64,000 bases of DNA from assembly GCA_002868905.1 (NCBI GenBank), contig PKUA01000011.1, positions 1 through 64,000 on the forward strand. The letters run 5' to 3'. The notes beneath the pieces are model-generated. The model was not told the DNA's origin and made no database searches. It saw nothing but the letters and a program-made list of their open reading frames with translations. The stretch comes from Desulfuromonas sp. GTDB taxonomy: Bacteria > Desulfobacterota > Desulfuromonadia > Desulfuromonadales > Geothermobacteraceae. Below are positions 9,062-56,895 of this stretch, piece after piece (the stretch's first letter is position 1; each line of letters starts with the position of its first letter). The position numbers and the translations under genes are program-made.

Positions 9062-10132
9062 TCAGCGGCGACAGCGTCTAACCACGGTCGCCCCTACCTT
9101 ATCCAGATCGACCACATCATCAACACAGCCCGCCGCGATCGCCTCCTTCGGCATCCCGAACACAACGCTCGAGTTTTCGCTCTCGGCGATGACATGTCCT
9201 CCGGCTTCCTTGACTGCCCGGACTCCTTTGCTGCCATCATTCCCCATCCCGGTCAGAACAACCGAAACCAGATCCCGACCGAACATTTCGGCGGCCGACT
9301 GGAATAAGATGTCGACCGATGGAATGTAGCGCTGGGCCGGTTCCGGTTCAGTGATCCGAGCCAGAACCTCGGAACCTTGACGTCGAAATTTCATATTTTT
9401 ACCGCCGGGCGCGACCAAAACCAGCCCCGGCCGAATCGTGTCACCATCTTCGGCCTCACGTACTTCAAAGCTGGTCAACCGGTCGAGTCTCTCGGCAAAG
9501 GCCCTGGTAAAACCGGGTGGCATGTGCTGGGCAATCGCAATTCCGACCTGAAACCCGCCGGGAAAGCTGGAAAGGACCTTCTGCAGGGCGGGCGGACCAC
9601 CGGTCGAAGCTCCGATAACGATCTGGCGAAAACCGCCGCTGCGCTCTTTCGGAATCGTCCGTCCCTTACCCACCGGCACCTTGGTTTGCGACAGGTCACG
9701 CCCAAGGACCTTGCGCATGTCAGTGGCCGCGACGTTTCGAATTTTCTGCAGCAGGTTTTCACGAATATTGAACAGGTCGGGGGATATCTGCATGGTCGGC
9801 TTGGCGACGAAATCGACCGCGCCAAACTCAAGCGCCTTGAAAACATCTTCCGAGCCGGTCCGCGACGAAACCACGATCACCGGCGTCGGCCGCTTCTGCA
9901 TCAGGATGCGCAAGAAGGAAAATCCGTCGAGGCGGGGCATCTCCAGATCGAGCGTCACCAGGTCAGGCTTCAGGTCAAAGACCTTACGCAGGCCTTCTTC
10001 GCCGTTGCAAGCGTAACCAACCACCTCCAAACCTTCGACGCTCTCGAGCATCTTGGTGATGGAACGACGATTGAAAGCTGAATCGTCGACCACCAGGATT
10101 TTCACAACATCGTGGTTCAAAGTCGTCGTCAC
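9062..10132 (-). CDS. cheB: Chemotaxis protein-glutamate methylesterase CheB
   Basis: 356 residues. An N-terminal receiver (D16-D17, phospho-acceptor D62 in LDLEMP) is joined to a C-terminal methylesterase with the catalytic Ser in GASTGGP, His in AQHMPPGFTRAF and Asp in GMGNDGSKG. It removes methyl groups from receptors once phosphorylated by CheA. GTG start at 10132 overlapping the cheR stop by 4 bases (GTGA), a typical translational coupling. All catalytic residues are present although no receptor is encoded here. Confidence 0.96.
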   Translation of the reverse strand: MTTTLNHDVVKILVVDDSAFNRRSITKMLESVEGLEVVGYACNGEEGLRKVFDLKPDLVTLDLEMPRLDGFSFLRILMQKRPTPVIVVSSRTGSEDVFKALEFGAVDFVAKPTMQISPDLFNIRENLLQKIRNVAATDMRKVLGRDLSQTKVPVGKGRTIPKERSGGFRQIVIGASTGGPPALQKVLSSFPGGFQVGIAIAQHMPPGFTRAFAERLDRLTSFEVREAEDGDTIRPGLVLVAPGGKNMKFRRQGSEVLARITEPEPAQRYIPSVDILFQSAAEMFGRDLVSVVLTGMGNDGSKGVRAVKEAGGHVIAESENSSVVFGMPKEAIAAGCVDDVVDLDKVGATVVRRCRR

Positions 10133-46130: not shown

Positions 46131-46583
46131 ATGCACTTCTGTGGTGAACATTTCAAACCGCTCGATGACAAGGGACGCCTGAGCATTCCGCGGGAATTCC
46201 GCGACCAACTGGCAACCGACGATCTCCATCTGGTCCTGACCAAGAACATGAACGGCGGTCTGGCCGCTTACCCGACCGCGGAGTGGGACGATTTCGTCAG
46301 ACACCTCGAGAACATTCCCGCCGGACAACAGCGCAACGCCCTGAACCGCCTCTACCTGGCACCGAAAACCGACGTTCAGGTCGACAAACAGGGCCGCATT
46401 TCGTTGAGTCGCGCCCAGCGCAAGTGGCTCGGACTGACCGAAGATGACCGCGAGGTGGTGCTGGTCGGCAACTTTCGCCGTTTCGACCTGTTCAGTCCAG
46501 AGCGATACCAGAACGTGATCGCCGCCGACGTAGCCCTGATCAAGGAAGCCGAGGAGTTGATCAACCGGATCGACTTGCCGTAG
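46131..46583 (+). CDS. mraZ: Transcriptional regulator MraZ
   Basis: 150 residues with two SpoVT/AbrB-like repeats: HFKPLDDKGRLSIPREFRDQ and TDVQVDKQGRISLSRAQRKW. The ATG at 46131 has GGGG at proper distance; ATG 46101 would place the start inside the operator. MraZ represses the dcw division and wall operon, of which it is normally the first gene. Here rsmH, ftsL and the rest do not follow; only a small membrane-protein gene does. Confidence 0.95.
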   Translation: MHFCGEHFKPLDDKGRLSIPREFRDQLATDDLHLVLTKNMNGGLAAYPTAEWDDFVRHLENIPAGQQRNALNRLYLAPKTDVQVDKQGRISLSRAQRKWLGLTEDDREVVLVGNFRRFDLFSPERYQNVIAADVALIKEAEELINRIDLP

Positions 46584-46934: not shown

Positions 46935-46974
46935 AAAAAAGCCCCCAACTCTGCTGATTGAGAACTTTGGGGGC
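46935..46974 (-). terminator. Intrinsic terminator of the DUF2202 operon
   Basis: On the minus strand an 8-bp stem (46974-46967 with 46948-46941) with an 18-nt apical part that can pair further is followed by six T (46940-46935). It ends the minus-strand operon and may also stop the mraZ unit arriving from the other side, where the tail is weaker. Confidence 0.8.
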
Positions 46975-46999: not shown

Positions 47000-47620
47000 C
47001 TACACTCCCATAATTGCCTCAAAAAGTGCCTGACTAATATATTGAGGCGTATAGGTGACTCCCTGTCGGGCAAGGGCGTTAACATAAGCACGCAAATGAT
47101 TTTTGGACCCCTCAAGCAAATTTTGATATGCGACTACAACATCCAGGTTGTCCGTATCAGCAATCGCGTGTTGTATATCGACCATGTCAATCTCTTCGAT
47201 TGTCGCACCGACCGTTAACCCGTCCGTCAATGATTCGGCACCCGCCTCAATGAGTTCATCGTATTTCTGCTGCAATATCGTGTTGTTAAATACTCCCTCG
47301 TAGATTGAAGCCGAGTCAGGAAGCCCGTATTTGTCCAGTTTCGCCTTCATGGTATCCATATGTTGTTGCTCGGAAACCGCGATCCTGGCAAAAGGATTCG
47401 TCTGCCATAAATCAGTCATTACCAGGTAGACATCCCGAGCCAGTTTCTCTTCCTCGCGCATGTACTCAAGGTGATCAATCTCTATCTGGTTTAGTGACGA
47501 CACCCCAGAACCAGGTCCCTTTCCAGCCAATGACAAGGGCATCGTGAGAAAAGTTGCAACGCCAATGAAAACCAAAGTAACGAGGAACGAGAGGATTTTG
47601 ATTTTTTTATGCTTTTCCAT
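47000..47620 (-). CDS. Exported ferritin-like DUF2202 protein
   Basis: 206 residues. Signal peptide (about 1-32), then a four-helix ferritin-like DUF2202 domain: EYMREEEKLARDVYLVMTDL, FARIAVSEQQHMDTMKAKLD, ANLDVVVAYQNLLEGSKNHL-like region. The Glu and His residues (EEEK, EQQH, SKNH) are placed as di-metal ligands. Function of DUF2202 is unproven; metal or oxidant handling is inferred. It is the last gene of the riboswitch-headed operon. The ATG is preceded by GGGAGG. Confidence 0.86.
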   Translation of the reverse strand: MEKHKKIKILSFLVTLVFIGVATFLTMPLSLAGKGPGSGVSSLNQIEIDHLEYMREEEKLARDVYLVMTDLWQTNPFARIAVSEQQHMDTMKAKLDKYGLPDSASIYEGVFNNTILQQKYDELIEAGAESLTDGLTVGATIEEIDMVDIQHAIADTDNLDVVVAYQNLLEGSKNHLRAYVNALARQGVTYTPQYISQALFEAIMGV

Positions 47621-47652
47621 CTTTTTCCTCCCTTCTTGTTTTGGATACCCAC

Positions 47653-48927
47653 CTACTGAAGGGTTTCCGACGGCCTCCTGTTTTTATAACCATGCCTGTA
47701 GGTATAGCCAGCTCCATTCAGGTCATTGATTCCGTCGCCATTTTCATCCTGGAATCGATCATTGTATTGATCGGCGTCGGTATCGGCCCATCCGAACCCG
47801 TGGCTGAACGGTAGCTGAGTTACATCGTCAATTCCGTTCCCGTCACGATCCGGGTGGCTTTTCTGATACCCGTAACCGAATCGTTTCTGAGCGAACAGGC
47901 AATCATCGCAGTCCGCGACGCAATCACCGTCACGGTCCCGGATTCGATCATTGATACGGTCCCGGTCGACATCCCCCCAACCATACCCATGGGCATAAGA
48001 TGTCCCCGTCAGATCATTGAAGCCATCACCGTTGGCGTCGGCAAACAGGTCATTGAACCCATCGCTATTTTCATCGAGCCAACCAGGTGTCGCCATATAA
48101 GGTACCCCGCCATAATTTCGATCGTGGTCGCAGATTCCATCCCCGTTTGCATCGGAAAAGTTGTCATTGATCCCGTCACCATCTATGTCGATATAGCCAA
48201 AAGGGTGACTGAACGGCATACCCGTGAGGTCACAGATTCCGTCGCCATTCGCATCGACAAAATTGTCATTGATACCATCGCCATCCATGTCGACGAATCC
48301 AAAACCATTGCCGCTATGTGCCCCTGTCCTGTCACAGATGCCGTCGCCGTCTTCATCTATGAAATTATCATTGATCCCATCGCCGTCCTGGTCGACAAAC
48401 CCCAGCCCAAGCATGTAAGGGGAGCCTGCATAATAGTAGCCGTTATCACATATTCCATCCCCATTGCTGTCCGTAAAATTGTCATTGATGCCATCGCCAT
48501 TATCATCGACGAACCCGAATCGATACCCATCGAAGCCGGTATGTGATATCACCCAGCCATTCCTGACGTGGACTTGGCCAAGATCGAGATACTGGTGATT
48601 CAACATGCGGAAGGGGATCTCCGCGATTGTCCCATCGTGTAAATGAACAAATAGACTGTGATCCCCGTCAGCCACGTCAGAAACTTCAAAAGCCCCATCT
48701 GGTTCAAGAGCTGTTGAGGAAGATGACTCGTCGAGGATAACGAACTCGGAGGAGGATTGATTCGCTTGAATCTGGGAGGTCGAACGGTTTTCGAGCTGCA
48801 AGGTTCCAACAACGGTTCCCTCATCCGCGCCTGACGATCCTCCTCCCGACCCACCACATGAGACCAGTCCTGCCATCGCTATCCCAACCATGAAGGACCA
48901 CCCTGTTTTTGCAATCATCGTTTTCAT
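47653..48927 (-). CDS. Surface lipoprotein with tandem calcium-binding Asp-rich repeats
   Basis: 424 residues. Lipobox LVSC after a signal peptide, a Gly/Ser linker, a beta-rich domain (about 40-125), then about eight repeats of roughly 35 residues around DDNGDGINDNFTDSNGDG and DQDGDGINDNFIDEDGDG. These are EF-hand/dockerin or thrombospondin-3-like Asp loops, each able to bind calcium. One repeat is degenerate with four Cys (CVADCDDC). ATG at 48927 with AGGAG at 7-nt spacing. It is predicted to sit on the outer membrane and to stiffen when calcium is bound. Confidence 0.84.
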   Translation of the reverse strand: MKTMIAKTGWSFMVGIAMAGLVSCGGSGGGSSGADEGTVVGTLQLENRSTSQIQANQSSSEFVILDESSSSTALEPDGAFEVSDVADGDHSLFVHLHDGTIAEIPFRMLNHQYLDLGQVHVRNGWVISHTGFDGYRFGFVDDNGDGINDNFTDSNGDGICDNGYYYAGSPYMLGLGFVDQDGDGINDNFIDEDGDGICDRTGAHSGNGFGFVDMDGDGINDNFVDANGDGICDLTGMPFSHPFGYIDIDGDGINDNFSDANGDGICDHDRNYGGVPYMATPGWLDENSDGFNDLFADANGDGFNDLTGTSYAHGYGWGDVDRDRINDRIRDRDGDCVADCDDCLFAQKRFGYGYQKSHPDRDGNGIDDVTQLPFSHGFGWADTDADQYNDRFQDENGDGINDLNGAGYTYRHGYKNRRPSETLQ

Positions 48928-48964
48928 GATAGCTCCTGTTTGCATCGGTCCTTAACCGTTGATC

Positions 48965-49573
48965 CTACTTGCGTGCTGCATCTCCCCCTGGCAACTTACC
49001 AGGTTCGCTAATTGCAATAAGATTGGTGTTCAGTTGATAGATCCGCTTGGCCAGGTCCTCATTCTCGGCGTCAGGATAACTATCGCTTCTCGAACAGGCG
49101 GATTCTCCATGCGCGCGAAGGAAGACCCTCAAAGTAAAGTCCTCCGGTTGGTTTCTGGTTTCCGGGATCGGACATGCGAGATTCGGGTCACGTTTCCAGC
49201 CGGGAGTTGCAGGTCTACCAGCCCAACAGATAACCTCGTCTTGATCATTGAGGACCTGAAGGCAGAACCCGCCCGGCCCGCCCGAACAACCCAACGACTC
49301 CGTGTCTGAAGAATCGTTCAAGTAATCTGCTGCGAAAGAGTCCTCGGCATGATCATGCTCCTCCCCCATGCGCCCCTTTGATTGAAAATCCTGGGCGACG
49401 AGAGTCGCAATGAGAACCTGGTTTCCGGCGCTTTGAAACATGTAATCATCATATTCGCCTGAAAGAATGTGAGCCCTCATTCCGGACATCTCCGCGCTAA
49501 CAGGCGAAACAAAACCCCACAGGAGTGCGACGCAAATAAAAAGACCTGTTTTGATTGTTGAAAACTTTTCCAT
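48965..49573 (-). CDS. Exported hypothetical protein
   Basis: 202 residues from the ATG at 49573 (SD GGAGGG). A signal peptide ends near VSAEM; the mature part has paired Cys (LGCSGGPGGFCLQVLNDQ, VICWAGRPA, LACPIPE, SACSRSD) and no recognised domain. Periplasmic or secreted. It lies between the two largest proteins of the operon; function unknown. Confidence 0.7.
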   Translation of the reverse strand: MEKFSTIKTGLFICVALLWGFVSPVSAEMSGMRAHILSGEYDDYMFQSAGNQVLIATLVAQDFQSKGRMGEEHDHAEDSFAADYLNDSSDTESLGCSGGPGGFCLQVLNDQDEVICWAGRPATPGWKRDPNLACPIPETRNQPEDFTLRVFLRAHGESACSRSDSYPDAENEDLAKRIYQLNTNLIAISEPGKLPGGDAARK

Positions 49574-49649
49574 GTGTCCCTCCGTGCTCTGTTTCAAGTC
49601 TTACCCGGGGAAGATTTTCGCTCTTCCCCGGGTAGAGATTGACCTTTCT

Positions 49650-50909
49650 TTATTGCTCAACATCTATGGTCTCGCACTGGTCAAGCCATTCATCCGCGAC
49701 CGGGTAGGTGTGCATGAAGAGTATGACGGCTCTTGCATCATCTGCGGCCATAACGAATCCGGAGATGTTGGTTCCGGACGCCCCTTGATTCCCAAAGACC
49801 ACATCCATCACTTTCCCTTTGTGAAGCTTGGCCGTCCCGTCTGGAAGATATTCCCCATAACAAATGGTTTTCTCATCGTTCTCGGCGGCGTATCTCACTT
49901 CCCTGTCATAGGTGAAACCTGCGTATGGGAAATAATCTTCCTCAACGGGAAGATTTATGCCGAGCACCGTATTGATAAACACAGTACCATCTACGGTTGC
50001 CTGTCCATCCTTATCAATCGCAGCACCCAACATTGAGGCGGCGGCATCGAAATATGTGCCGTCCTCAAAGGGTGCGGCTACAGTGACGCCGGAGAAGGTT
50101 AGACTCTGATTGAGCAAAACCTGTCGGTAGATCGCCAGGTTTTCGAGAGGGGAATCGATGATTTTAGTGGATCCGTCCGCTTTTGTAATAAAAACGCGTC
50201 CTGCCGGGTCAGTTTCGATGCTGTCGATGTCTGGTTGGCTGAGAAGATCTATAACTTCTCCAAGAGCCCTATCCAGCACCCTGTCAGGTGATCTTGAGAA
50301 ACTCAGCCGACCGAGGTCAACTTCGGATGCAAAGAATTGATACTCTTCGAAAATCGCCCCCTCGCTGTCCAGCGGGAGTAAATACACATCGGACCACCCG
50401 GCATAAAGGGAGTCCTCCGACGGGAGCCAATCGTTCTTAACAATGTCAATAATGTTGAGGCAAGCATTCGACAACTCTTTGCAAGTGAACGGATAAAGAC
50501 CATCGACGCAAACAGATTCATCAAAAAGACCACAGTCAGCTACATCCAAAACAGTAATTGGTTGCTCGAAAACGGCATCGTCTGGCAATGGGGTCCTGTT
50601 AAGAACCGGCGTGTTGTATCCAATGCTGCTCCATGAATAAAGAAGCGGAACACCGTCAGGGTCGCGATCAATGACATAAAGGTCACCATACAGTTCACCC
50701 TTTCCCGGACTATTCCCGCTATTGCCATTGTCATTACCGTTGCCGGGATTCTCATCAACAATTTTCACAGAACCCAAGCCATTTCCGCTATTTGGGACCC
50801 CCCCTCTTTGAGCGTATGCCCAAGTTGGTAGCGCCATGACAATTGCCACGGTTGCAAGCAGGAGTAGTTGAAACACTATTTGTGGTTTAAATGCTGCTTT
50901 TTCTCTCAT
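49650..50909 (-). CDS. Large exported hypothetical protein, first gene after the riboswitch
   Basis: 419 residues from the ATG at 50909 (SD AGGAGG). A signal peptide (about 1-33, ending WAYA) is followed by a Gly/Asn-rich linker (NPGNGNDNGNSGNSPGKGEL) and a globular region with four Cys in CGLFDESVC and CKELSNAC. No catalytic motif is seen. The acidic, low-Lys composition suits a secreted or surface protein. It is the gene most directly under control of the GEMM-like element. Confidence 0.78.
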   Translation of the reverse strand: MREKAAFKPQIVFQLLLLATVAIVMALPTWAYAQRGGVPNSGNGLGSVKIVDENPGNGNDNGNSGNSPGKGELYGDLYVIDRDPDGVPLLYSWSSIGYNTPVLNRTPLPDDAVFEQPITVLDVADCGLFDESVCVDGLYPFTCKELSNACLNIIDIVKNDWLPSEDSLYAGWSDVYLLPLDSEGAIFEEYQFFASEVDLGRLSFSRSPDRVLDRALGEVIDLLSQPDIDSIETDPAGRVFITKADGSTKIIDSPLENLAIYRQVLLNQSLTFSGVTVAAPFEDGTYFDAAASMLGAAIDKDGQATVDGTVFINTVLGINLPVEEDYFPYAGFTYDREVRYAAENDEKTICYGEYLPDGTAKLHKGKVMDVVFGNQGASGTNISGFVMAADDARAVILFMHTYPVADEWLDQCETIDVEQ

Positions 50910-51063: not shown

Positions 51064-51110
51064 TCCCACCTCCTTTCTTTCTGGTGACGTTCACGGCCTC
51101 CGAAATACAA

Positions 51111-51155
51111 ATGGCCGAGTTACCCAAGGTTTTGGACCTTCGGTAGCTCGGCCAT
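51111..51155 (-). promoter_or_regulatory. Alternative hairpin overlapping the riboswitch aptamer (expression platform)
   Basis: On the minus strand a 9-bp outer stem (51155-51147 with 51119-51111), a 4-bp TACC/GGTA helix and a 4-bp AAGG/CCTT helix, separated by single mismatches, close a 7-nt loop. A moderately T-rich stretch (TTGTATTTC) follows. Its 5' arm is the same sequence as the 3' part of the aptamer, so the two folds exclude each other. Confidence 0.7.
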
Positions 51156-51215
51156 CTTCGTCCAGAAGACCCGCCGCTTTCCGCACCTATCTCACGAAAG
51201 GACTGGCTTTTCGGG
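51139..51215 (-). promoter_or_regulatory. GEMM-I (GEMM-Ib-like) cyclic-dinucleotide riboswitch aptamer
   Basis: The minus strand carries P2 (CCTTTC/GATAGG, 51201-51186, one mismatch) capped by a GTGA tetraloop, the joining element GCGGAAAGC (51184-51176), P3 (GTCTTC/GAAGAT, 51170-51154) and GGCCGAGCTACCGAA (51153-51139). As I recall them, the c-AMP-GMP-sensing GEMM-Ib RNAs of Geobacter have GCGGAAAGC, GGGTCTC/GAGAC and GCCGGGCTGCCGAA in the same order. It starts about 25 bases into the transcript of the promoter at 51246. Ligand choice (c-di-GMP or 3',3'-cGAMP) cannot be decided by eye. Confidence 0.76.
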
Positions 51216-51245
51216 TTTTTACACGCGCCCCGGATGTTTGCAATC

Positions 51246-51273
51246 ACTATATTCCGCAGACCTTGCGTGTCAA
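51246..51273 (-). promoter_or_regulatory. Sigma-70-type promoter of the riboswitch operon
   Basis: On the minus strand TTGACA (51273-51268) and TATAGT (51251-51246) are 16 bp apart. The transcript should begin near 51239, a few tens of bases before the aptamer, and run into the genes at 50909, 49573, 48927 and 47620. Confidence 0.86.
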
Positions 51274-53990: not shown

Positions 53991-54064
53991 GGAATTGTCC
54001 TGGATGATTCGCCCTGTTCAGGGGCAAATCGAAGCAAAGGTATGGGATCACTCCTGCAAAACTT

Positions 54065-54685
54065 TTATCTGCACAAGATTGTCATCGGCTGCCGGATGAT
54101 TGTTTTCCAGTTCCGGGGGTCCGCGCGACGAATATCACTCAGGTAGATTTCGTGATGTTTTCCCGTTAGTTCTCCACCGTTCCCTTGAATAAATTCATGC
54201 AACTTCTCCACGGTCGGTCCTTCCTCGGAAAAAGGCCCGACATGAAGGATCTGAGCGGATAAACCTTCGTTGAAGCTCTCAAATCTCAGGTTTGGCAGGG
54301 CTGGCAGATCCTTCTTGCCGGAGACTGCGTCCATGGCTGAATCCACCATCGTTGCGGTAATCAGCGCAGGTTGCATAATCATCATCCGCCAGATCCAATT
54401 GGATTTATTCCCTTCGACAAAATCAGACATATCTTCCGCCCACCAAAGCCCCTCTAACGGCATCACCCCGTAATCAATCGCGGCAGGAGACTTTTTGACC
54501 ATGAACTTTAACGTATAAGCCACGGAAAAAAGAACGTCAATGGCGGCCTGATGATCGGATGCGCCGGGCTCGCCCATGCCGTCAACCATCAAGAAGTTCA
54601 TTTCCGGAACAATACACTCCACGACCTTTTTCGCGGAACACTTGTAATATTCTTTCAGCTCTTTGTTAAAATCAATTTTTTCCAT
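54065..54685 (-). CDS. GyrI-like small-molecule-binding domain protein
   Basis: 206 residues: VPEMNFLMVDGMGEPGASDH, AIDVLFSVAYTLKFMVKKSP, YGVMPLEGLWWAEDM and the C-terminal LSDIRRADPRNWKTIIRQPM are those of the stand-alone GyrI-like family, a SHS2-fold ligand-binding group. No DNA-binding domain is attached. Role unknown; detoxification is often suggested for the family. Confidence 0.84.
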   Translation of the reverse strand: MEKIDFNKELKEYYKCSAKKVVECIVPEMNFLMVDGMGEPGASDHQAAIDVLFSVAYTLKFMVKKSPAAIDYGVMPLEGLWWAEDMSDFVEGNKSNWIWRMMIMQPALITATMVDSAMDAVSGKKDLPALPNLRFESFNEGLSAQILHVGPFSEEGPTVEKLHEFIQGNGGELTGKHHEIYLSDIRRADPRNWKTIIRQPMTILCR

Positions 54686-54804
54686 GAGTGTTCACCTTGA
54701 ACAGGAACGGACTGGCCTTAGAGATCTGGGTCTGGTCACTTTCAATGGTGGAGCAACTCTTAGGCAACCCGACCAGGCATAACCCCGGCCGCCTGAGTGC
54801 ATGG

Positions 54805-55119
54805 CTAGTTGTTTTTTGCACTGGAATTTCTCAAGAGCAGGTACCAGTTTAAACCCACCAAAACGACTGACATCAAAATATAGGCTGCAATGACGGCCAG
54901 TTGGAAAAAGTATGCTGCGATCCCTCCCTGATCCCCTGTATGCGCCGCAAAGAAATAAGAGGTGCCGCTGCCTGCGAACACCAAAACCCCGCCGACACAC
55001 AGATATACCATTCGCAAACCGGGTCTAAACCACCTTGAATAAGGGAGTGTGATTACAAAGATTACAATTGGGCCAAGCAACATCAACAGGCCAATAAGCA
55101 TACTGAAAGTCCAGAACAA
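54805..55119 (-). CDS. Small membrane protein
   Basis: 104 residues with three membrane helices (SMLIGLLMLLGPIVIFVITL; MVYLCVGGVLVFAGSGTSYF; FFQLAVIAAYILMSVVLVGL). Not recognised. The gene is AT-richer than its neighbours. No strong SD is visible. Confidence 0.55.
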   Translation of the reverse strand: MFWTFSMLIGLLMLLGPIVIFVITLPYSRWFRPGLRMVYLCVGGVLVFAGSGTSYFFAAHTGDQGGIAAYFFQLAVIAAYILMSVVLVGLNWYLLLRNSSAKNN

Positions 55120-55164
55120 GTTGATGGCAGCAAAACAATGCAGACTAATTCAGCAATAAGAAAG

Positions 55165-55356
55165 TCATTTGATTTTCAATATGCCAATAACAATACATAT
55201 AGCGCCGCCCACCATACCACCCCACGCCTCAAGCGGTACATCGCCGCTCAATGCTCTCGTTATTTGCGAACCTGCAGAGTTATAAATATTATAACCCCAG
55301 ACAGCCAAAGCAATTCCGACAACCAAAAGAACCACTCCGATATACTTGCTTTTCAT
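55165..55356 (-). CDS. DUF3185-type small membrane protein
   Basis: 63 residues with two helices: IGVVLLVVGIALAVWGYNIY and GGMVGGAICIVIGILKI, joined by NSAGSQITRALSGDVPLEAW. This layout and sequence match DUF3185. ATG with GGAGGT upstream. Function unknown. Confidence 0.68.
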   Translation of the reverse strand: MKSKYIGVVLLVVGIALAVWGYNIYNSAGSQITRALSGDVPLEAWGGMVGGAICIVIGILKIK

Positions 55357-55390
55357 GAGACCTCCAACTTCAGATTAGAAAGAAAATAAG

Positions 55391-55582
55391 TTTGAACACA
55401 AAACGCCTGCTCTTAGCCGTGTGTGGCAGCAGGGCGCCGAGATCACCACCAACACTATTATGCAGGGCAATTATGCAAAGCTGCAGAACTCCCTGCAAGA
55501 GTATATTCGCAACGACATCCCCGACACAACAAAACACACCCAATTGACCCAGGTGCAGACCAGGTTCGAGATATCATCGTGA
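55391..55582 (+). pseudogene. Possible gene remnant
   Basis: Starting after a TAG, a frame stays open for 63 codons and reads like normal protein (ALSRVWQQGAEITTNTIMQG, NSLQEYIRNDIPDTT) ending in TGA. It has no start with an SD and no recognised family. Together with the rest of the 336-base gap 55357-55692 it looks like decayed coding sequence. The only other feature in the gap is the terminator at 55627. Confidence 0.25.
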
Positions 55583-55626
55583 TCGAACCGGATAAGGACC
55601 ATGAAAAATGGTGTGGTTATAGGTTT

Positions 55627-55668
55627 AAAAAGAAACGGCAGGACCACCTGAGGTGCCCTGCCGTTTTT
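55627..55668 (-). terminator. Bidirectional intrinsic terminator after apgM
   Basis: A 9-bp stem (55634-55642 with 55657-55665) is extended by an inner CACC/GGTG helix. It is flanked by TTTT on the plus strand and by an A-rich stretch (55627-55635) that gives T on the minus strand. It lies 24 bases after the apgM stop. Confidence 0.82.
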
Positions 55669-55692
55669 GTTCATCGAATTATCCTTAACTGC

Positions 55693-56895
55693 CTAACTCT
55701 CGATCATCCTCCGCACCAATTCATGCCCGGGATCGACAATCACACCTGAAGCCTTGGCCTGCGCCTCGTCGTAACCTTTCGCGCCGTTGCCGCTGACCTT
55801 GCCGGTCGAATCGTAGAGAATATAAGGCACCGCGTCGGAGGTGTGGGTCATCAGGTGCAGCGGGGTCGGATGGTCCGGCAGAACCAGCACGCGGAAATCT
55901 CCGTATTGCTTGAGCCCTTCGATCACCGGGCCGACGATCTTGGCATCGAAATCCTCGATCGCCTGCAATTTATCCTCGAGTTTACCGCCGTGAGACGCTT
56001 CGTCCGGGGCTTCGACGTGGAGGTAAACGAAGTCAGTGTCGGCCAGCGCCTCGATGGTCGCTGACGCCTTGCCGGCGTAGTTGGTGTCAAGGTAGCCGGT
56101 AGCGCCCGGCACGTCGATGACCTTGAGACCGGCGTAAGTCCCGATCCCCTTGATCAGGTCGACGGCGGATATGACAGAACCTGTCAGCCCGAGCATCTGC
56201 TGGTAGGTCTGCATTGCCGGCGGCCGCCCCTGTCCCCAGAGCCAGATCGAGTTGGCGGTCACCTCCCCTTCATCCTCACGTTTCAGGTTGACCGGGTGGC
56301 GTTTGAGCAACATCTGCGCGCTGGTGGTGAGGTGAATCAGGGCGTCGGCCCCATCCCCTTGCGGCAGGTAATTGCGCACCGACTGGTTGGTGATGTCGTG
56401 CGGCGGTGTGGTCTGCAGCGCCTCCTTGCCGCCGTGCCAGACCAGCAGGTGACGGTAAGAGATGCCGGGGTGAAAAGTGAACTGCTCGTCGCCGAGTTCT
56501 TCCTGCAGGGAGAGAATGAGTTGGCGTGCCTGATCGGTGCCGATATGTCCCGCGGAAAAATCCCCCATGTAGAGGTCGAAGCCGTGCGGCGCCAGGTGCA
56601 CCAGGTTGAGACGGAAGGCGACGTCGTCCGGTCCGAGTTCGACCCCCATGCTCGCAGCTTCGAGGGGGGAGCGACCGGTATAGCAGTCGCGCGGGTCGTA
56701 ACCGAACACCGAGAGGTTGGCGACGTCGGAGCCGGGGCGGAAGCCTTCCGGCACTGTCTGAGCCAGGCCGATCTCACCCTGTTGGGCGAGGCGGTCCATG
56801 TTCGGGGTGGCGGCCGCCTGCAAAGGGGTCTTTCCTTCGAGCGCTTCTACCGGCTCGTCCGACATGCCGTCGCCGAGCAATACTACGTACTTCAT
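55693..56895 (-). CDS. apgM: Cofactor-independent phosphoglycerate mutase, ApgM type
   Basis: 400 residues of the alkaline-phosphatase superfamily: KYVVLLGDGMSDEP with the metal Asp, TPNMDRLAQQGEIGLAQTVP, GSDVANLSVFGYDP (nucleophile Ser), HVEAPDEASHGG and LVLPDHPTPLHLMTHTSDAV. It interconverts 2- and 3-phosphoglycerate. This archaeal-type form is common in Deltaproteobacteria. ATG at 56895 with AGGAG at 8-nt spacing. Confidence 0.95.
   Translation of the reverse strand: MKYVVLLGDGMSDEPVEALEGKTPLQAAATPNMDRLAQQGEIGLAQTVPEGFRPGSDVANLSVFGYDPRDCYTGRSPLEAASMGVELGPDDVAFRLNLVHLAPHGFDLYMGDFSAGHIGTDQARQLILSLQEELGDEQFTFHPGISYRHLLVWHGGKEALQTTPPHDITNQSVRNYLPQGDGADALIHLTTSAQMLLKRHPVNLKREDEGEVTANSIWLWGQGRPPAMQTYQQMLGLTGSVISAVDLIKGIGTYAGLKVIDVPGATGYLDTNYAGKASATIEALADTDFVYLHVEAPDEASHGGKLEDKLQAIEDFDAKIVGPVIEGLKQYGDFRVLVLPDHPTPLHLMTHTSDAVPYILYDSTGKVSGNGAKGYDEAQAKASGVIVDPGHELVRRMIES

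Follow-up and report, generated by a model that had tools for sequence, protein, structure and literature searches.

The operon described here lies on the minus strand of a 64,000-nucleotide stretch of Desulfuromonas sp. DNA (GenBank assembly GCA_002868905.1, contig PKUA01000011.1, positions 1 to 64,000; hereafter the window) and consists of four genes, P1 to P4, preceded by a riboswitch aptamer of the c-di-GMP-I (GEMM-I) class. It is proposed, with moderate confidence, that this operon is induced by cyclic diguanylate (c-di-GMP) and encodes an envelope or extracellular module, the core of which is formed by P1, an exported protein of an unnamed family, and P4, a ferritin-like DUF2202 protein. 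The features of the locus, in the order of transcription, are the following.

51246-51273, minus strand: sigma-70-like promoter (TTGACA-16 nt-TATAGT), with 11 of 12 consensus positions and about 29 nt between its end and the aptamer
51139-51217, minus strand: c-di-GMP-I (GEMM-I) riboswitch aptamer with G at the Vc2-20 position (Rfam RF01051, 44.3 bits, and alignment)
51105-51157, minus strand: expression-platform hairpin using the aptamer 3' strand, followed by AUUUGUAUUU (folding, -32.6 kcal/mol)
49650-50909, minus strand: P1, exported protein of 419 amino acids (aa) with a Gly/Asn linker, of an unnamed family (open reading frame (ORF) list; without Pfam or NCBIfam match)
48965-49573, minus strand: P2, exported orphan protein of 202 aa whose mature part has five Cys (ORF list and homologue search)
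47653-48927, minus strand: P3, lipoprotein of 424 aa with 13 Asp/Asn-rich calcium-type loops (lipobox and motif)
47000-47620, minus strand: P4, exported DUF2202 ferritin-like protein of 206 aa (matches to PF09968 and MJ0754)
46938-46968, minus strand: terminator-like hairpin with a T run after P4 (motif scan)

The genes stand in the order P1-P2-P3-P4, separated by 76, 37 and 32 nt, and each is preceded by a Shine-Dalgarno-like stretch (AGGAGG, GGAGGG, AGGAG and GGGAGG, respectively). By inspection, type I signal peptides are present at the start of P1, P2 and P4, and the N-terminus of P3 is a lipobox (AGLVS-C24). Taken alone, the promoter and terminator scans return matches near chance frequency; the promoter is more credible because the riboswitch stands right behind it. 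One transcription unit for P1-P4, presumably giving a single transcript, is a supported arrangement. A first-pass annotation, made from the sequence alone, had described four genes in one direction with short gaps, all encoding exported products, under one promoter and one terminator, and the coordinates, the strand, the gaps of 32-76 nt, the signal peptides and lipobox, and the sites at 51273-51246 and 46968-46938 agree with it.

The aptamer is the sole Rfam RNA match in the whole window, and its covariance score is above the RF01051 gathering score of 35. Within GEMM-I, G at the position equivalent to G20 of Vc2 marks the c-di-GMP type and A the cyclic GMP-AMP (cGAMP) type. Sixteen GEMM-I matches were found in this genome, and their alignment, which also included the aptamer of the related genome G044 (Desulfuromonadaceae SZUA-540), places A at this position in 11 of the 16 and G in five, namely the window aptamer and those designated C65, C73, C8 and C51; G is also found in G044. 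The window, C65, C73 and G044 aptamers form a subtype, sharing the CGGAAAGC stretch and compensatory C-G pairs that replace G-C. It was shown that the A20G change alone converts the cGAMP riboswitch Gmet_0970 into a c-di-GMP riboswitch (PMC6456294), and G20 points to c-di-GMP as the ligand of the window aptamer. The first-pass annotation had suspected a second-messenger cue, although it had named no riboswitch; the cue can now be specified as that of a c-di-GMP-type GEMM-I RNA, to judge by this nucleotide, with an ON-switch layout. At least seven canonical (GH..GD) GGDEF proteins and two of the Hypr type (GH..GS) are encoded in the genome, and since both kinds are present, both c-di-GMP and cGAMP are plausibly made in this organism.

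The hairpin of the leader (z -6.8, unmatched by any shuffle) takes up the 3' strand of the aptamer's P2/P1 helix, and the aptamer and the terminator hairpin overlap likewise in C65, C73 and G044. Behind it, the window carries AUUUGUAUUU, an interrupted U run, compared with UUUUUU in G044. In the pilM ON switch, the aptamer and the terminator are mutually exclusive (PMC9262584); by analogy, the window leader would be a transcriptional ON switch of the pilM type. In the proposed mechanism, transcription would start near 51240. With little c-di-GMP present, the newly made leader would form the hairpin at about 51157-51105, removing the 3' strand of the aptamer, and transcription would stop; at high c-di-GMP, as in the surface-attached, biofilm state, the bound aptamer would keep this strand, allowing polymerase to read through into P1-P4. 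The products would then be exported and may, as we infer, build a surface assembly, in which P4 would likely bind or oxidise metal close to P1, P3 would be an outer-membrane or periplasmic lipoprotein, probably calcium-binding, and P2 a small accessory.

P1 has no significant match among Pfam, NCBIfam or PDB sequences. The AlphaFold model built from 83 sequences is confident in the C-terminal domain (predicted template modelling score 0.74, core predicted local distance difference test score >90), and no relative at E <= 0.001 was found for it by Foldseek in the PDB or viral sets. A contig scan with the P1 sequence alone gave no match, whereas scanning with the P1 alignment gave the relatives: 211 confirmed P1-family loci, of which 80 were kept, spread over Alpha-, Beta- and Gammaproteobacteria, Desulfopila, Prolixibacter (Bacteroidota) and Trueperaceae. 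Within the order Desulfuromonadales, protein and alignment searches place relatives in 10 of 136 genomes, the window's own counted. Most have a Gly-rich or similar linker, and R, D, K, Y and P residues are invariant in the domain behind it. The invariant or near-invariant positions of the family domain (GD..RD, GR, R, D..GR, IDSP..NLA.Y, K, D, H) are fitted by the window P1 at 4e-85, which, on alignment grounds, makes P1 a member of a widespread unnamed exported family composed of a linker and a globular domain. The domain occurs in tandem, as two copies, in some relatives; at L034-L037, the architecture varies, some forms having a single domain and those of genomes G034, G016 and G049 a tandem duplication that includes a shuffled AAS..VLGIN element.

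P4, called a ferritin-like DUF2202 protein in the first-pass annotation, proved to be one: it matches PF09968 with E=7e-49 over profile positions 1-159 of 162, and the structures 3q4o/3q4n of archaeal MJ0754 with E 1e-42. The ferritin-type ligands (E, ExxH, E, ExxxNH) are kept in P4 as E56-58, E84/H87, E142-143 and E170/H175 in a comparison of six sequences. P4 is read as a four-helix protein with putative di-iron residues. It resembles the DUF2202/MJ0754 proteins in its full-length match and conserved residues and differs from MJ0754, deposited as an uncharacterized protein, in being exported and in sharing an operon with P1; in the open literature searched, no mention of DUF2202 or MJ0754 was found. 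DUF2202 is uncommon, occurring in 12 of 136 genomes of the order, where most of its genes stand alone, and in six of the 49 P1-bearing genomes searched. Seven genomes are known to have both a P1 and a DUF2202 gene, and in five of them, listed here, the two lie at most 5 kb apart.

Window: same operon, minus strand
G070: decayed DUF2202 gene in a LuxR-P1 cluster, at a distance of about 4.7 kb
G504: DUF2202 gene with a broken frame, 252 bp downstream
Prolixibacter: two-domain protein, about 2 kb away
Polaromonas: DUF2202 gene 276 bp upstream, same strand

The stops and frameshifts at L083:562-1031 (G070) and L202:9031-9626 (G504) reflect either decayed genes or assembly errors. The chance of such proximity is about 0.003 per genome, a rough figure that assumes a genome of about 4 Mb with one or two copies, and the five linked P1 proteins fall in different parts of the tree. 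Because proximity in five distant lineages is far above chance, P1 and DUF2202 look functionally linked, and the two proteins are probably active jointly at the cell surface.

An alternative reading puts the emphasis on P4: the module would handle metal or oxidative stress through DUF2202, with P1 as its partner or substrate and c-di-GMP control as secondary. This reading, though a minority possibility, survives best among the alternatives, being consistent with the ferritin-like relatives and conserved ExxH residues of DUF2202, and with the surroundings of a P1 gene and a P3 gene in genome G125, where a copper-type ATPase and a MerR regulator are encoded close by. Against it, most P1 loci examined are without metal genes, and the commonest neighbour of P1 is an outer-membrane barrel. 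A BBP2_2-type barrel gene adjoins P1 in 49 of 93 loci (seven of which seeded the hidden Markov model), in nearly all cases immediately ahead of it and in the same orientation. In Pseudomonadota (L097, L102, L164 and 46 further loci) this takes the form of a two-gene cassette, in which a BBP2_2 and outer-membrane protein barrel of about 820-910 aa is followed by a Gly-rich P1-family protein. The window resembles this cassette, for which no published name was found, in carrying the P1 domain behind a Gly-rich linker, and differs from it in lacking a barrel gene and in its partners P2, P3 and DUF2202.

A GerE/LuxR-type regulator gene adjoins P1 in Desulfuromonadales, Vibrio and Prolixibacter; the counts of LuxR and DUF7453-like neighbours are descriptive only, since their hidden Markov models were seeded from the counted loci. 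In G034, G049 and G070, the regulators carry WISR, WVSR or WASR where the c-di-GMP motif of VpsT sits. These differ at the first variable residue from W[FLM][TS]R, which we take to be the consensus of that motif, and no match to Pfam VpsT-like_REC reached cut-off in the P1-adjacent regulators. The c-di-GMP motif and R134 of VpsT are confirmed in the published paper. In G044, a G20-subtype GEMM-I aptamer stands directly before a P1 homologue of another clade. Since this aptamer and the W-[IVA]-S-R regulators are found at different P1 loci, c-di-GMP is suggested as an input of P1 genes through two kinds of sensor, RNA and regulator. The window resembles the VpsT/CsgD-controlled biofilm matrix genes in its exported output and in the GerE-type regulators adjoining the P1 homologues of these genomes, and departs from them in that its sensor is an RNA and that the motif found elsewhere only approximates the one of VpsT. 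Outside Desulfuromonadales, GEMM control of P1 genes was considered and rejected, as only matches of at most 20 bits were found, most of them kilobases away; the match at L151 (14 bits, 9243-9325) is close to a P1 gene yet at chance level (E 0.27). Two further protein types occur near P1: small exported proteins that are rich in Gly/Ser and have long DQDRDRDQ tails, recurring beside P1 or DUF2202 genes and LuxR regulators (L032, L080, L082, L084, L088), and an exported family of 580-630 aa with a weak DUF7453 match, behind the P1 gene (L032, L033, L082, L105, L113, L139).

The remaining two proteins do not share this linkage. No homologue of P2 was found in the 58 related genomes searched, and its description as Cys-paired in the first-pass annotation is not borne out by five Cys. 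The calcium-repeat lipoprotein proposed for P3 stands as far as the lipobox and the 13 loops (DxDGDGxND / DxNGDGICD) are concerned, but no match above cut-off to the Pfam EF-hand, thrombospondin type 3 or dockerin families accompanies them; by its motif, P3 probably binds calcium. About a dozen genomes of the order have full-length P3 homologues of about 50% identity, which usually stand alone; none of these homologues is next to P1 or DUF2202, and none lies behind a GEMM aptamer. No P3 or DUF2202 gene elsewhere was found to be under GEMM control, the GEMM RNA at L204 pointing to another gene. A conserved four-gene module was likewise rejected: the complete set is present in none of the other genomes searched, and what had been presented as a four-protein module shows, as a full set, scattered and independent occurrence in relatives, with P2 an orphan and P3 unlinked. 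Gene neighbourhoods return not the four families together but the P1-DUF2202 pair, in five unrelated lineages; P2 and P3 appear as local additions to this recurring core.

Acquisition of the operon, also put forward in the first-pass annotation, is plausible because of the low G+C content at third codon positions (GC3), the absence of the families in same-family genomes and the position of P1 in the tree. The G+C content of the four genes is 46-52%, compared with 57.0 +/- 4.0% for the window ORFs, and by GC3 (0.50-0.54) all four fall within the lowest five of the 48 window ORFs. The claim that the operon is richer in A+T than its flanks holds against the window ORFs, but the adjoining 51-52 kb and 54-56 kb are equally low in G+C, and the A+T-rich stretch extends past the operon. 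A search of four same-family genomes returned none of the P1, P2, P3 and DUF2202 families. In the tree, the window P1 forms a long, deep branch by itself, not grouped with sequences of the same order. In an empty-site comparison, clear syntenic orthologues of the flanking genes were not found in the nearest genomes, and a search for P1 on plasmids was without match. Nearby, positions 54000-56000 form a second A+T-rich stretch of 49-50% G+C, and a MraZ gene (PF02381) lies at 46131-46583. MraZ genes are expected to precede rsmH/mraW in the dcw cluster; here, an ORF of 97 aa follows instead.

A further alternative is a chance assembly, in which four unrelated exported genes were acquired recently as an accessory operon and have no joint function, a reading somewhat less probable than the metal-stress one. 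It accommodates the lack of the full set elsewhere in the genomes searched, the orphan P2 and scattered P3, and the low GC3, the neighbourhood itself being low in G+C; the linkage of P1 and DUF2202 in five distant lineages speaks against it, as do the export of all four products and their one common leader. Least probable, and in our judgement unlikely, is that the riboswitch answers cGAMP or both dinucleotides and that the operon belongs to the known Geobacter-type extracellular electron transfer regulon: the predominance of A20 aptamers (11 of 16), the two Hypr-like GGDEF proteins, the reported response of the G. sulfurreducens OmcST riboswitch to both dinucleotides, and the cytochromes and MauG-type peroxidase among the other GEMM targets here favour it, but the window aptamer is G20 and belongs to its own subtype with C65, C73 and G044 (CGGAAAGC, C-G for G-C), and no cytochrome is found among P1-P4, where CXXCH is not apparent and Pfam finds none.

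The comparison with the Geobacter GEMM-I regulon (pilM, pgcA, omcAHG; GEMM-Ib, cGAMP) is close in RNA class, exported products, the hairpin overlapping an aptamer strand, and copy number (16 GEMM-I RNAs here, 17 in G. sulfurreducens). The two differ in G20 instead of A20 and in the targets, non-cytochrome exported proteins not found described for that regulon. Other GEMM-I RNAs of the genome stand before varied genes. The G20-subtype aptamer at C65:254-330 (L048) precedes a MauG/CCP-type di-haem peroxidase gene cut by the contig end, and that at C73:1323-1400 (L043) a gene for an exported subtilase-PKD protein of 839 aa. Three aptamers in tandem at C17:11616-12549 (L044), all A20 and of the cGAMP type, lie ahead of one gene, and two A20 aptamers in tandem at C56:3377-3720 (L040) precede a two-partner secretion pair with a ShlB/FhaC-type transporter (POTRA_2).

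Several observations weigh against a c-di-GMP-induced operon with a P1-DUF2202 core. About 88 of the 93 P1 loci are without DUF2202 nearby, stops or frameshifts interrupt the linked DUF2202 gene in two cases of five (G070 C92 and G504), and only at the window and G044, among P1 loci, is a GEMM aptamer convincing by score and position. In the window copy, the RNA helix P1 of the aptamer is short and the interrupted U run (AUUUGUAUUU) is weaker than in G044; some Geobacter GEMM-I RNAs also bind both dinucleotides. A broader proposal, that P1 and DUF2202 form the core of an undescribed extracellular system governed by c-di-GMP in several phyla, through GEMM-I RNA or VpsT-like regulators, is put forward only tentatively.

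For this organism, the data suggest that the GEMM-I RNAs of one genome are perhaps split by one nucleotide between c-di-GMP and cGAMP, with the operon on the c-di-GMP side. For the P1 family, a large secreted family without a domain model or solved relative is given c-di-GMP as a regulatory input and DUF2202 as a likely partner, both of which become testable. If the broader proposal is true, the partner of a widespread secreted family of no known fold would be an exported di-iron protein, and c-di-GMP control would reach this system through sensors that differ from lineage to lineage.

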